From: Candidatus Woesearchaeota archaeon
GTDB taxonomy: Archaea; Nanobdellota; Nanobdellia; Woesearchaeales; JACPBV01
Length of the DNA stretch: 32,336 nucleotides
Direction of reading: 5' to 3'
Assembly: GCA_016188175.1 (NCBI GenBank)
Contig: JACPII010000038.1
Location: 1-32,336 of the forward strand
Made by a program: the position numbers and the translations under genes. The notes under the pieces were generated by a model. That model did not search any database and was not told the origin of the DNA. It saw nothing but the letters and a program-made list of their open reading frames with translations. The number at the start of each line of letters is the position of its first letter. The stretch's first letter is position 1. This document shows positions 26,571 to 31,880 of this stretch, piece by piece.

Positions 26571-27158
26571 ATGAAAGATGTAAAACACCAGGAAACAGAA
26601 ATCCAGCATAAAATCACCAAAGAAATGCTCATCGGAGATTTAGTCTCTCTTTTTCCCGACGCAGTTGGCCCTCTCCTTGAAGAAGGCGTCCATTGCATCG
26701 GCTGCGGAGCCTCAAATTTTGAGACCATCGAGCAGGGCCTTCTCGGCCACGGCGCAAGCGAGCAGGACATCGCAAGGGTCATCGAAAAGCTCAACAAAGC
26801 TGTTGAAGAAAGCAAAAAATACCCTTCAAATCCCGAATCCGTGACCATCACCGAAGGAGCAGCCGATAAAGTTGGCGAGCTGCTAAAGAAGCAGAAAAAG
26901 CCATTTGAAGGATTGCGCATTTCAGTCGTCCCCGGAGGCTGCTCGGGGTTCCAGTACGGCTTTGAATTTGCTGAAAAGAAGGACAAGGAAGACAAAGTCC
27001 TCGAGGTGAAGGGTGTCAAATTCTTCATTGATTCCAGCAGCATGGACATGATGAAAGGCTCAAAAATAGAATATGTGGAAAGCCTCCAGGGTTCCGGCTT
27101 TAAGATCTCCAATCCTAACGCGCATGGCAGCTGCGGCTGCGGGAAATCATTCAGTTAG
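26571..27158 (+). CDS. DUF1858 domain fused to A-type Fe-S cluster carrier (IscA/SufA/ErpA family)
   Basis: The protein has 195 aa. Residues ~13-70 form a DUF1858-type domain (KITKEMLIGDLVSLFPDAVGPL, then HCIGCG with Cys42 and Cys45), a small redox or cluster-binding helical unit often found with hybrid-cluster proteins. Residues ~90-195 form a HesB/IscA domain with the three cluster cysteines Cys124 (GGCSG), Cys188 and Cys190 (SCGCG). A-type carriers receive and pass on Fe-S clusters; the fused CxxC domain may bring electrons or bind the cluster first. The next gene is a YgfZ-like protein, which also serves Fe-S maturation. Confidence 0.93.
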   Translation: MKDVKHQETEIQHKITKEMLIGDLVSLFPDAVGPLLEEGVHCIGCGASNFETIEQGLLGHGASEQDIARVIEKLNKAVEESKKYPSNPESVTITEGAADKVGELLKKQKKPFEGLRISVVPGGCSGFQYGFEFAEKKDKEDKVLEVKGVKFFIDSSSMDMMKGSKIEYVESLQGSGFKISNPNAHGSCGCGKSFS

Positions 27159-28064: not shown

Positions 28065-28130
28065 TCATCCCTTCCCGATTGCATCCTTTATTATCTCTAT
28101 TCATCCCTTCCCGATTGCATCCTTTATTAT
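28065..28130. repeat. Tandem 36-bp duplication at the end of the small Cys/His gene
   Basis: A 30-base stretch, starting TCATCCCTTCCCGATTGC, occurs at 28065-28094 and identically at 28101-28130 (36-bp period). On the minus strand each copy reads IIKDAIGKG plus stop; the upstream copy is the real end of the gene at 28101-28271, and the other lies beyond its stop in the same frame. Confidence 0.85.
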
Positions 28131-28271
28131 ATCCATATTGCAGCTGTGATGCTCGTTGCACCATGCCTCGCAGGCATCTTTCATCGTTTTTGTCGGGTAT
28201 CTCATTCTGCAGGCTTTGCAAACATACTCTTTAGTGCTTTTTTCCTGTGCCTTATTTTTTTGCTTTGTCAT
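28101..28271 (-). CDS. Small Cys/His (zinc-ribbon-like) protein
   Basis: The protein has 56 aa. The metal-site residues are Cys18 and Cys21 (YVCKAC), Cys34, Cys38, His41/His42 and Cys44, in the pattern CxxC..CxxWCxxHxSCN. Similar small proteins with CExWCxxHHSCN are, as I recall, common in archaea near thiol-redox genes; they are uncharacterised. The ATG lies inside the last 20 nt of ccdA in a different frame, so it is translationally coupled as the last gene of the redox operon. It likely binds zinc or another metal in the cytosol. Confidence 0.8.
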   Translation of the reverse strand: MTKQKNKAQEKSTKEYVCKACRMRYPTKTMKDACEAWCNEHHSCNMDIIKDAIGKG

Positions 28272-29268
28272 TTTCTGTTGCCTGATGCTTGCCCCTTCTT
28301 CTCTTCCACAAAAACCAGGAAACGAGGGAGATAAAGGCGATAAACAAAAGGATCCCGGCAATTTCAGCGTAACTCCACTCCATGAGCTTATTTTGCAGGC
28401 TGTAAAACAGGTCCTTAGTCCCGAAGATGTCCCACGCATTCACGACTTTTGTCCCCTCAAAGATGATCATGACCATCCCCAGGAGGATGTAGAATGCCCC
28501 GGCAATCATGCTCGTGGAATGCACCTCATACTCCTTTCCAAACATTGAGAAATGGACAATCTTTCCCTTCATGAGCCTGCTCTCTCCAAGATTGAATTTA
28601 TCATAGAAAATCGACAGGAGAAACAGTGGAACTAAGTTTCCCAGCGAATAAAAAAACAATAATGCTCCAGACTGCAGTGGATTCCTTAATATTGCCCCTA
28701 TCCCGAGAATTCCTGCCAGTATCGGCCCAAGGCAGGCAGACCATCCGAGGGCATAGAAATTTCCCATGAGAAAAATTCCTGGAATATCATTAGTCCCTTT
28801 CCTTGCACGCCGCAAAAATGATGAAAACCCCTTCCCGAAGAACGACATGATGCCCATAAGGATGAAAAAAGCTCCCCCGATGCCAACCAGCCATGGCCCC
28901 TGGATAGCAATAAGGGCTTGCTGGCCGACAAATCCTGCAACAACCCCCATAGCCGTAAAGACCGTCGCAAAACCAAAAAAGAACACCAGCGTCATCAGGG
29001 TAATATTCCTTTTTTCCTTGAACGTATAGGAAAAATACGCCGGCAGGAAGGGCAAGATGCAGGGGGAAAATATGCCCAACATGCCGGCGATGAATGCAAT
29101 AAAAAACGTGATTTTTGTTGAAAAGTCAAGTGTTGACTGCTTGTTGTAGTCAAGGATACGTTGAAGGCCGATGGGGATCTCTTTCTGGGAAGCAGCAAAT
29201 GACGCACCCAGCACTGCAAGTGCAGCAATCACGGCAGCAAGGAAAATCCAGCGGCTGCGCTTCCTCAT
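28252..29268 (-). CDS. ccdA: CcdA/DsbD-type transmembrane thiol-disulfide transporter
   Basis: The protein has 338 aa. A signal-like first helix (6-25) and a short exposed segment precede six core helices. The paired redox cysteines are Cys70 in FSPCILPFLPAYF and Cys179 in GWSACLGPIL, the two hallmarks of CcdA. Two further C-terminal helices follow after an exposed loop, making it longer than minimal CcdA (about 220 aa). It carries electrons across the membrane to outside thiols, for instance to keep copper-site cysteines reduced. A strong AAGGAGGGGG site sits ahead of its ATG. It follows the CuA cupredoxin gene by 32 nt, which suggests it helps mature that protein. Confidence 0.93.
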   Translation of the reverse strand: MRKRSRWIFLAAVIAALAVLGASFAASQKEIPIGLQRILDYNKQSTLDFSTKITFFIAFIAGMLGIFSPCILPFLPAYFSYTFKEKRNITLMTLVFFFGFATVFTAMGVVAGFVGQQALIAIQGPWLVGIGGAFFILMGIMSFFGKGFSSFLRRARKGTNDIPGIFLMGNFYALGWSACLGPILAGILGIGAILRNPLQSGALLFFYSLGNLVPLFLLSIFYDKFNLGESRLMKGKIVHFSMFGKEYEVHSTSMIAGAFYILLGMVMIIFEGTKVVNAWDIFGTKDLFYSLQNKLMEWSYAEIAGILLFIAFISLVSWFLWKRRRGKHQATENDKAKK

Positions 29269-29300
29269 GTTTGTCTTTCCCCCTCCTTCTTGGGATCATC

Positions 29301-29780
29301 CTACTTGACCACAAACGTCCCTTTCATCGTGCTATGCCCAAACCCGCAATAGATAGTGCAGATGATTTCCCAAGCGCCTTTCTCATCGGGAGTAAATTCA
29401 ACAGTCACCGGAAACCCGGGCCTTATCACCGTCTCGATGTTGTAGCCGGGTATGCTCAGCCCCTCAATCTCAAATCCGTGGGGCACGTCTTCAGCCGAAA
29501 CGATAAGCCTCACCCGCTCGCCCTTATTGACGACAATGGTGGAAGGCGAGAAATAAAACTGGTATGCCTTGAGTGTTATTACCCTGACCCCATTGATAAC
29601 CGTCCCGGAAAGAGGATTGTCCTTATACCGGTCATCATGGTATTGGATGATTTTTTTTGCCTGGATAGTTGAAGAATTATCAAATGTGCATCCGCTGAGG
29701 ATAAGGAATGGCATGGTGAAGGCCAGAAAAAACGCGCCCAATCCTCTGGATTCCCTTCGCTTGTGACTCCTGTTTTTCAT
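29301..29780 (-). CDS. CuA-type cupredoxin (COX2/NosZ-like), membrane-anchored
   Basis: The protein has 159 aa. An N-terminal helix ending LSGC (Cys31) looks like a lipoprotein or membrane anchor. The cupredoxin domain (about 65-159) holds His101 in DVPHGF and the complete CuA ligand string Cys141-x3-Cys145-x3-His149-x2-Met152 (ICTIYCGFGHSTM), as in cytochrome oxidase subunit II and nitrous oxide reductase. No oxidase subunit I or NosZ body is in the window, so it may be a free-standing electron carrier or copper protein. GAGGG lies 8-12 bases ahead of the ATG. Confidence 0.93.
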   Translation of the reverse strand: MKNRSHKRRESRGLGAFFLAFTMPFLILSGCTFDNSSTIQAKKIIQYHDDRYKDNPLSGTVINGVRVITLKAYQFYFSPSTIVVNKGERVRLIVSAEDVPHGFEIEGLSIPGYNIETVIRPGFPVTVEFTPDEKGAWEIICTIYCGFGHSTMKGTFVVK

Positions 29781-29865
29781 TGCAGATGCCCTCTATGCCT
29801 AATTTTTCAAACAACGCCCGCCTATTGCAGGGATGATGTCCAATTTTTTTCTCGGTGCATCATCC

Positions 29866-29951
29866 TGCTCAACTAAGTATCGACCCCCCAAAATGGACAC
29901 ACCCTTCAATAATGCAAAACGGCACCAGCCTTGCTCACGTAAGTATCGACC
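29866..29951. repeat. Imperfect 20-bp direct repeat at the end of the YcdB-like gene
   Basis: TGCTCA, two variable bases, then TAAGTATCGACC occurs at 29866-29885 and 29932-29951 (18 of 20 identical). The second copy encodes the last residues (RSILT plus stop) of the gene ending at 29935, so the first looks like a duplicated gene end. Confidence 0.6.
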
Positions 29952-30783
29952 TCAGCAGTTCAGTTTCTACAACAGGTACATCTTTCCCAACGGTGTAGCC
30001 TGGCGGAAGTTCTGTCCTTGCGTTCCCCGAAAACACAACCCTTCCGTCAAGTGCATCAATCCCCGCAAATATCGGATAGATCTTTTTTACCTTGACAAGC
30101 CAGAGCGGCCTGTCTTTGTTGATAAGCAGGAGTGGATCAGCCGGAAGGGGTTGTCCGTTGAGCGACAGTTCACCGATTTTTTTGGCAACCTCCGCAGGAA
30201 TGGCGGGTGTTGTCCGGATGGCCTCCTTCGGGGAGGAAAAGAGAGACAGCCGGAACGAAACAATATCTCCATCAACCGGGTCAACCTCAACCGTAAAGTG
30301 CTCATTCATCACCGCAACACCATCCGCATATCTGAACCAGGTGAACTCATAAACTCCCTGGTAAAGTTTTTTCTCACCGGCAAACGAAAGCTCTTTTTTA
30401 TAGGGATCAGGGACATATTTCTCAAACGCTCTCTCTGCTATTTCCCTCATCTTCTCAGAAGAGAAAAACTCTTTTCCTGAAGAGGCAAGGCTGTCATCCC
30501 TAAATCCAAATATCGAGTTATCGGAAGGATTGACTAAAACCGATAATTCCAGCTTCCGGTCAAATTTCGCGGCAATGAGCTCAAAGTCATAGTCAAACAT
30601 GGTTGGCAGCTCCCCCACATTGAGAAACTTTTGTGCAGCTTGAATGACTCCCATTTTTTGTTCTTTGTCAAAATCCAGGCTTATGCCGTAGAGGATGTTG
30701 GAATGGGCGCCAGCTTCAATGGACAACAAGAAAAAAAAGAAAAAGGGAACGAAATACGCAAATCCCTTTTTTTCAGATGGCAT
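29935..30783 (-). CDS. Secreted YcdB/YcdC- or PepSY-like protein
   Basis: The protein has 282 aa. A signal peptide (FAYFVPFFFFFLLSIEAGAHS) is followed by alternating helix and sheet modules such as FTWFRYADGVAVMNEHFTVEVDPVDGDIVSFRL, the pattern of YcdB/YcdC and PepSY domains. A similar but shorter module (DRPLWLVKVKKIYP, ALDGRVVFSG) closes the protein. The biochemical role of these domains is unclear; some act as chaperones or inhibitors outside the cell. AGGGGAG lies ahead of the ATG. It is third in the redox operon, after two LPxMVGGC proteins and before the CuA cupredoxin. Confidence 0.72.
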   Translation of the reverse strand: MPSEKKGFAYFVPFFFFFLLSIEAGAHSNILYGISLDFDKEQKMGVIQAAQKFLNVGELPTMFDYDFELIAAKFDRKLELSVLVNPSDNSIFGFRDDSLASSGKEFFSSEKMREIAERAFEKYVPDPYKKELSFAGEKKLYQGVYEFTWFRYADGVAVMNEHFTVEVDPVDGDIVSFRLSLFSSPKEAIRTTPAIPAEVAKKIGELSLNGQPLPADPLLLINKDRPLWLVKVKKIYPIFAGIDALDGRVVFSGNARTELPPGYTVGKDVPVVETELLRSILT

Positions 30784-30812
30784 CTCAACTCCCCTGTTGC
30801 TGTTGGATAAGG

Positions 30813-31043
30813 CTAACAGCCCCCGACCATCGAAGGCAGGTTCTGGATGCTTGACGGAAGCGAACCAGCAGGGCTTCCTGAGCCGCCCGAACTTGCAGCC
30901 GGAGTTACCTTTCCGCTTGAGCCGCCTATCGTCATTTTCCCCTCATCTAAAGCAACCTTTAATCCCCTGAGCTGAAGTGCCTGCACTGCAGTAATCAACA
31001 AAAGCACTACAAGGGCAATTGCCATTATTGTTGTTTGTTTCAT
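30813..31043 (-). CDS. Small membrane-anchored protein ending in LPSMVGGC
   Basis: The protein has 76 aa. One N-terminal helix (about 6-24, MAIALVVLLLITAV) is followed by a flexible Gly/Ser/Pro-rich linker and the C-terminal LPSMVGGC (69-76), ending in Cys76, the only Cys. The same ending closes the protein upstream at 31104. GGAGGG (31051-31056) is a strong ribosome site for the ATG. I know no described function. The anchor, linker and invariant tail suggest the tail is displayed outside the membrane as a metal- or haem-binding, disulfide-forming or processing tag. Confidence 0.85.
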   Translation of the reverse strand: MKQTTIMAIALVVLLLITAVQALQLRGLKVALDEGKMTIGGSSGKVTPAASSGGSGSPAGSLPSSIQNLPSMVGGC

Positions 31044-31103
31044 TTCTTGTCCCTCCGTTTGAATCTTTTTTTCCTCAGTGTTTTGAATTCCATTTATTTG
31101 ACC

Positions 31104-31880
31104 TTAACATCCGCCGACCATTCCCGGAAGGGATTCGAGCGCGGAAGCATCTCCACCAGCTATCTTTGATGCAAGGTTTATCATATCTTTCGGGAAAAAG
31201 AGCGTTTTCCATCGCATGACCTCTCGTAAAACCTCTGCATCAGTATAATCGGTGTATGCCGTTAGGTAAAGGGTGACTGCAAGGAGCGCTGGGTTGTGCT
31301 GGCAGCCGCAGACCGAATTGCCGTTTTTATCAGCACCTGCAGGCCCTACCCCGCAGCAGTATTCGCAGGAAACCCCTTTCGGAGTGCTTGCAAGGTTCAC
31401 ATACCGTTTGAACGCCTCTGGATTGCTCTTCTCAACTTCAGCCTTGAGCGGCCTGAACATTTTGGAAAGCGTCGAAAGCGCGTTAACCGGGTCATCAAAC
31501 GTTACCCCTAATTTTTCCCCATATTCAGGGGTTCCCGTGGGAAACATCATTGCCATAACCCCATCCGCGCCGCCTGCCTCACTCAGGGGAAAGACCGCAG
31601 CAACCGTTTGGGCGGTTGATTGGAGCCCATCAAGGTTCACCTTGCTTAGGTCGCCTTTGCCCGCAAAAACAGATGTCTTCGAGCTTCCAAACCCGAGGAT
31701 GCTTATCCCTGCATTGGAAAGGGAACTTATCTGGACTTGGTTGATGACTACCATAACTACAACTGCCCCAAGAAGTGTAATATTCAGAGGATTGAATGCC
31801 TTCTCCTCTGTTTTATGGGTTTTTCCCCTTTCTGCCCCATGAACCTTCTCATTTATCTCTTGATCATGCTTGTGTTCCAT
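31104..31880 (-). CDS. Membrane-anchored Cys-rich protein ending in LPGMVGGC
   Basis: The protein has 258 aa. A charged His/Lys/Glu-rich N-terminus is followed by one helix (about 33-48), then an outside domain. A cysteine cluster at Cys172, Cys175, Cys176 (SCEYCCGVG) and Cys191, Cys193, His195 (VCGCQHN) is followed by helical ALLAVTLYLTAY and LREVMRWKTLFFP. It loosely resembles the PCYCGC-type metal-binding motif, though I cannot assign that family. It ends LESLPGMVGGC, with Cys258 last, as in the 76-aa neighbour. It is the first gene of the redox operon; GGAGGGGG (31885-31892) precedes its start. Confidence 0.85.
   Translation of the reverse strand: MEHKHDQEINEKVHGAERGKTHKTEEKAFNPLNITLLGAVVVMVVINQVQISSLSNAGISILGFGSSKTSVFAGKGDLSKVNLDGLQSTAQTVAAVFPLSEAGGADGVMAMMFPTGTPEYGEKLGVTFDDPVNALSTLSKMFRPLKAEVEKSNPEAFKRYVNLASTPKGVSCEYCCGVGPAGADKNGNSVCGCQHNPALLAVTLYLTAYTDYTDAEVLREVMRWKTLFFPKDMINLASKIAGGDASALESLPGMVGGC

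Follow-up and report, generated by a model that had tools for sequence, protein, structure and literature searches.

The operon described here lies on the minus strand of a 32,336-nucleotide stretch of DNA from a Candidatus Woesearchaeota archaeon (assembly GCA_016188175.1, contig JACPII010000038.1, positions 1 to 32,336), the whole of which is referred to as the window. Its first two genes encode protein A (258 amino acids; 31104..31880) and protein B (76 amino acids; 30813..31043), and the genes that follow encode, in this order, a YcdB/PepSY-like protein, a CuA cupredoxin, CcdA and a small cysteine-rich protein. A ends in LPGMVGGC and B in LPSMVGGC, and each has one N-terminal hydrophobic helix, which confirms what an earlier reading of the sequence alone (the sequence-only reading) had reported. 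The MVGGC codons occupy 31107..31121 in A and 30816..30830 in B. The membrane anchor of A is joined to an extracytoplasmic domain with a CxxCCG...CGCxH core, encoded at 31296..31367 (C172-x2-C175-C176-G ... C191-G-C193-x-H195) and invariant in 94 aligned members. B comprises a membrane helix, a QxQLxxL juxtamembrane motif and a low-complexity linker ahead of the tail peptide SIQNLPSMVGGC. The tail is almost certainly a conserved functional element common to A and B, and the two proteins probably constitute a module that handles copper and thiols outside the cell. Both the A family and the paired cysteine arm are new within the data searched, and the searched literature contained no biological use of MVGGC.

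Occurrence and conservation of the tail

MVGGC followed by a stop codon occurs four times in the window's own genome, as two adjacent pairs, one in the window and one on contig C43; about 0.024 occurrences of the 18-base pattern would be expected by chance according to our estimate (Poisson P of about 1e-8 for four). Such a site is carried by 29 of the 98 relatives' genomes, nearly always in adjacent same-strand pairs or triplets, and a control with the pattern reversed had no occurrence in the 98 relatives. The motif was not scattered at random positions in unrelated proteins: every hit whose open reading frame was inspected proved to be an A or B protein, apart from one hit ending in TGG, which is no stop codon. 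Across the 99 genomes the tail was found only on A and B proteins, with one to six sites per genome. A rare tandem variant is found at L060 678-935, where a tailed protein ending in PSMIGFC adjoins one ending in PSMVGGC.

Since the loci in the 29 genomes had been picked by the tail, two tail-independent searches were added. The first scanned 84,980 species genomes with the core patterns [IVL]SCE[YF]CCG and Exx[KR]WK..LF and found 241 relatives, of which the best 80, ranked by whole-query similarity, were assessed. These 80 were named Woese-, Pace-, Micr-, Aenigmat-, Alti-, Diaphero- and Nanohaloarchaeota, plus a few bacteria; 74 of the 76 assessable A proteins among them end in MVGGC and the remaining two in QVGGC. 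The second search used a core-only profile; of the 279 genomes sampled from the archaeal phylum of the window, 78 had a match. The motif is kept in homologous operons: among 69 A proteins taken from newly sampled genomes, the ending is MVGGC in 54 and MVGAC, QVGGC or IVGEC in three, while 12 have no tail. A tailed neighbour stands beside A in 66 of the 69 cases, including all 12 of the untailed proteins, and two of the remaining three lie no more than 320 bases from a contig end.

Besides the window's phylum, other DPANN archaea and a few Patescibacteria carry the module. Its prevalence beyond the window's phylum is gauged only roughly, since the searches of the phyla to which the Micrarchaeum and Altiarchaeota records belong each covered the same 10 genomes. 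Two Patescibacteria contigs, of 434 and 984 kb, carry an A–B–triple-thioredoxin set, one of them also with a copper-type ATPase and DUF411. These two records (L271 and L274) look genuine rather than misbinned, because the contigs are of this length and the genomes are grouped with Patescibacteria. Another record, L148, is very close to the window's A and may be misbinned.

Co-variation of the paired tails

The tails of A and B change together. Among distinct A/B pairs, 121 are MVGGC/MVGGC, three are QVGGC/QVGGC and none combines M with Q (Fisher 3e-6, phylogeny ignored); 13 further pairs join an untailed A to an MVGGC B and two join an untailed A to a QVGSC B. One of the Q pairs comes from a Micrarchaeum record and the other two from two different families of the window's class, so that the M-to-Q change is likely to have arisen at least twice independently. 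Gene conversion was ruled out as the source of the identical tails, because A and B encode them with different synonymous codons: no more than 11 of the 135 pairs share all 15 bases. The co-varying tails make it a testable claim that the two proteins share one binding site.

Architecture of A and B

Protein A is laid out as an N-terminal cytoplasmic stretch, one helix (residues 31-62 in the model), a linker, an ordered domain and the tail, and its invariant residues are G116, P118, C172, C175, C176, C191, C193, H195 and P230. In the AlphaFold model of the window's A, the predicted local distance difference test (pLDDT) is about 98 in the domain and 88 over the last eight residues. In the paralogue encoded on C43 it drops to 55 in the linker and returns to 78 in the terminal MVGGC, and this recovery suggests that the A tail docks.

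Pfam and NCBIfam scans gave no family for A or B, and none of the 94 A members matched any Pfam family. A search of PDB sequences with A returned no significant match, and fold searches of the PDB with two confident A models gave best E values of 2.2 and 0.5 and TM-scores of at most 0.25. A thus exemplifies a protein family without a Pfam or NCBIfam model, whose fold is predicted with confidence and has no counterpart in the PDB. This family is widespread in DPANN archaea, a group with largely uncharacterised exported proteins.

The anchors of A and B are alike, each being a membrane helix that bears QxQhxxL (hhalign 77%, 2e-5), so B may be a core-less A. Variants of B carry WTENEKMNYEMHGTIPARL or GGETYEQMMARMHPDQ ahead of the tail. 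Natural fusions link A and B: in L229 4284-4922 and L230 5305-5862 a single chain carries a B-like mid motif SYDEMMKAHHPEG, GCGG, a variant core (CCG...C.CGHH) and a terminal GGC, and these fusions are probably the most informative members for structural work. The window's own genome has the module a second time, on C43 (L050 7360-9826), where it encodes the A paralogue (265 amino acids), a 112-amino-acid membrane protein, a tailed protein of 143 amino acids with two WTENEKMNYE.HGTLPARL repeats, a VKOR-type thioredoxin and a DUF411/CopG protein (L050 7360-7839; PF04214, 84 bits), in which YCGCC supplies the CxCC motif.

Genomic context

The genes downstream of A and B in the window bear out the neighbours named by the sequence-only reading, in the order it gave, and they follow at short intervals (60 bases between A and B, 29 to the YcdB gene, 154 to the cupredoxin and 32 to CcdA). 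The YcdB/DUF4901-PepSY-like secreted protein (282 amino acids; 29935..30783) matches PF16244 (E=1e-07). The CuA-type cupredoxin (159 amino acids; 29301..29780; PF13473), a probable lipoprotein, has a C-x3-C-x3-H-x2-M motif and aligns over its full length with the CuA subunit II of the Thermus ba3 oxidase (phmmer 1e-14), with the ligands aligned. A CcdA/DsbD-type thiol-reductant exporter (338 amino acids; 28252..29268) matches PF02683 (E=1e-18; 68 bits against a cut-off of 27.1). The small CxxC..WCxxHxSCN protein of about 56 amino acids (28101..28271; YVCKAC...CEAWCNEHHSCN) lies in a longest open reading frame of 28101-28439; the probable start is 28271, not 28439, which makes it overlap the CcdA end. 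Its relatives recur near several other A loci.

Copper and thiol partners recur beside A, usually a triple-thioredoxin protein with CcdA, or DUF411/CopG; the YcdB protein is a rare partner (five A loci) and CuA occurs in only a minority of operons. Type I operons contain A, B, the triple thioredoxin, CcdA and sometimes CuA. Type II operons, to which the C43 copy belongs, contain A, a B variant, DUF411, a CPLC membrane protein and a CC-x-W protein, and type III loci often have an untailed A, in some cases with an extra N-terminal membrane domain, together with a tailed B. The uncharacterised type II proteins (L041, L042, L054, L274 and others) show AHCPLC after the signal and a CCKEW or CCRDW end, the latter a possible further C-terminal cysteine motif. 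The triple thioredoxin has three conserved CxxC motifs and cis-Pro; in the window's own genome it is encoded on a separate contig, C46 (L291 1384-2797), followed by a small lipoprotein with PVGGGCGIGAPAP, and small VGGGCG(V/I) lipoproteins are often found near the modules. HMA-type (copper) ATPases and BlaI/M56 pairs also recur near A loci.

The surroundings are of a known kind, that of extracytoplasmic copper and thiol handling. CopG binds a Cys-bridged tetranuclear copper cluster (PMC7558416, PMC8456105), and the DUF411 protein matches CopG 6WIS (2e-20) with its CxCC kept. DUF411 is present in 47 of the 279 genomes, 44 of which also have A (Fisher 3e-26). TlpA is reported to reduce CuA cysteines (PMC7558416), and a dedicated CuA-maturation role for the operon, akin to the metalloprotein maturation system proposed from the sequence alone, is possible. 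COX1 was found in 0 of 39 relatives, with positive controls, so the CuA protein serves no haem-copper oxidase and was rejected as a part of one. CuA proteins of DPANN archaea from oxygen-deficient zones have been reported as nosZ-like (PMC10936187) and may be cupredoxins of this operon kind; the A family may tie these puzzling proteins of oxidase-less archaea to a copper/thiol module. ETNP3_MAG14, a genome named in that report, has an A–B operon (L079/L040), and no CuA motif was found in the stretch fetched from it.

Distant bacterial relatives

The core profile reaches a rhodanese fusion from Patescibacteria (L276) that has PCCG...DCNHG and ends in ...KFGGSCGA. Its C-terminal part in turn finds hypothetical proteins with signals resembling those for twin-arginine translocation on plasmids of Burkholderia contaminans and Paraburkholderia (L281 7857-8807; L282 7851-8768). 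The Burkholderia contaminans island contains CueR, P-type ATPases, CcdA, TlpA, SCO and DUF411, and the Paraburkholderia island P-type ATPases, heavy-metal-associated domains, DsrE proteins and CcdA. Profile comparison of A with this RPCC..CNHG family indicates distant kinship only (hhalign 90%, 1.5e-6). The A family gives a hint at the function of unannotated proteins encoded in the heavy-metal islands of bacteria. A near-terminal SCG is present in three of the bacterial sequences, with ends such as ...GGSCGA and ...ASCGTRR. Because these distant kin also end near ...SCG, their sequences suggest that the near-terminal cysteine is ancient and belongs to the function instead of marking the protein for sorting. 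The bacterial proteins share with A the homologous helical core, the heavy-metal setting and the cysteine near the C-terminus, but they have two fewer core cysteines and a larger N-terminal part, no B was found with them, and their cysteine is followed by Gly and more residues.

Function of the module and alternative explanations

The explanation we favour, with a probability of roughly 0.45, is that A and B form a copper/thiol-redox module in which the terminal cysteine is a docking or ligand arm for the Cys/His site of A. The two proteins would be membrane-anchored extracytoplasmic partners, and the cysteines and histidine of the CxxCCG...CGCxH core would bind a soft metal, probably Cu(I). 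The MVGGC arm would fold back on the A core or dock on a common partner, placing the terminal cysteine thiolate, and possibly the carboxylate, at or near the site. B, an anchor and arm without a core, would present this arm to that receptor in trans, where it might complete the site, exchange metal or transfer electrons. Reduction of the cysteines would be maintained by the triple thioredoxin and CcdA, and CopG, the copper ATPases and the cupredoxins would be copper-handling neighbours. A more general and more tentative proposal is that MVGGC-COOH is a new C-terminal recognition arm: an identical peptide on a globular membrane protein and on its core-less partner that would plug into a single shared receptor site, whether in cis or in trans, completing a metal or redox centre, the co-evolving pair being kept across DPANN archaea and Patescibacteria.

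Several points weigh against the proposed copper-site arm. Metal binding by A is predicted from its residues, and the docking of the tail is read solely from pLDDT. In the M-to-Q genomes the A core was checked and no accompanying core change was seen, so that the receptor may be a protein other than A. Only a minority of A loci have a copper ATPase encoded within 5 kb, and the distant bacterial homologues lack the first cysteine of CxxCC and one cysteine of CGC. One B protein is untailed (...YLVGGF, L218/L092); it lies close to a contig end.

The strongest rival, which we nevertheless consider doubtful, is a redox relay without bound metal, in which the terminal cysteines of A and B would form reversible mixed disulfides (A with A, A with B, or either with the triple thioredoxin) and carry electrons from CcdA to exported cysteines, much as the C-terminal cysteine tails of thioredoxin reductase or mercuric reductase do. 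The most frequent neighbours are CcdA, the triple thioredoxin and thioredoxins of the VKOR type, the cysteine tail is exposed and flexible on its linker, and G-x-C is kept through the M-to-Q change. However, the tail offers one cysteine and no pair, the core with its invariant histidine resembles a metal site, copper genes co-occur with A, and an invariant M/Q-V-G-G exceeds what a mere thiol would need.

Of what the sequence-only reading had proposed, a functional tail and a setting of thiol redox and copper have held up, as has the presence of the motif in homologous operons, whereas sorting, lipid attachment and proteolysis are not supported. A signal for processing or anchoring, by which a dedicated enzyme would cleave, lipidate, thioesterify or otherwise modify MVGGC, would account for an identical short C-terminal pentapeptide in two proteins, placed behind a low-complexity linker and altered in parallel. 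It is nonetheless unlikely: the few carriers found are all A or B, no candidate enzyme is found at all loci, the cysteine of the distant homologues lies inside the C-terminus, and the fusions L229 and L230 end in GGC without M-V. LPXTG/sortase and GlyGly-CTERM/rhombosortase substrates likewise have a conserved C-terminal motif after a linker, and LPxM-VGG is superficially like LPxTG, but A and B have no C-terminal membrane helix or basic end, substrates are few per genome and no cognate enzyme was seen. A and B were rejected as substrates of either enzyme, since their chains stop at the motif and show no tripartite signal.

It is less probable still that the same architecture serves a different cargo, such as mercury, arsenic, sulfane sulfur, an iron–sulfur cofactor or haem. 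Soft-metal sites rich in cysteine are promiscuous, the distant homologues include a rhodanese fusion and a neighbour of DsrE proteins, and CPLC and CC-x-W-ended proteins accompany type II operons; yet CopG, CuA, cueR and HMA-type ATPases recur around the A family and its distant kin, and the COX1 result leaves no haem-copper oxidase to be supplied. Finally, that B is a core-less duplicate of A whose tail reflects common descent and gene conversion with no joint function is very improbable, for although the genes are adjacent and the anchors alike, the linkers have diverged past recognition around an invariant tail that is conserved across phyla and two domains and written in synonymously different codons; common descent may be true, but it leaves the constraint on the tail unexplained.

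Comparison with known systems

Flexible C-terminal cysteine tails are known from mercuric reductase and thioredoxin reductase, where they reach the active site of their own or a partner chain and carry paired redox residues on flavin adenine dinucleotide enzymes; here, in contrast, a single terminal cysteine is supplied by two different membrane proteins. The likeness to CopG/CutG (DUF411) is that of exported cysteine-rich proteins in copper islands, and DUF411 itself adjoins type II A, but CopG has a thioredoxin-like fold with CxCC, whereas A has no fold match in the PDB and bears a C-terminal cysteine arm. The TlpA/ScoI/PCuAC pathway resembles the operon in setting a membrane-bound thioredoxin and a CcdA-type reductant beside a CuA cupredoxin. 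It differs in that the operon is without Sco or PCuAC, the relatives are without COX1, and A and B match none of the pathway's parts. PCYCGC proteins (PF13798) are also small, exported and rich in cysteine, but homology with A is unsupported (hhalign probability 7%) and, with no Pfam match in the 94 members, A was rejected as their relative. PCYCGC proteins are sometimes encoded near A (L047, L210).

On the plus strand of the window, beyond the end of the operon (26571-27158), a DUF1858 domain is fused to an iron–sulfur biosynthesis (HesB-like) domain.

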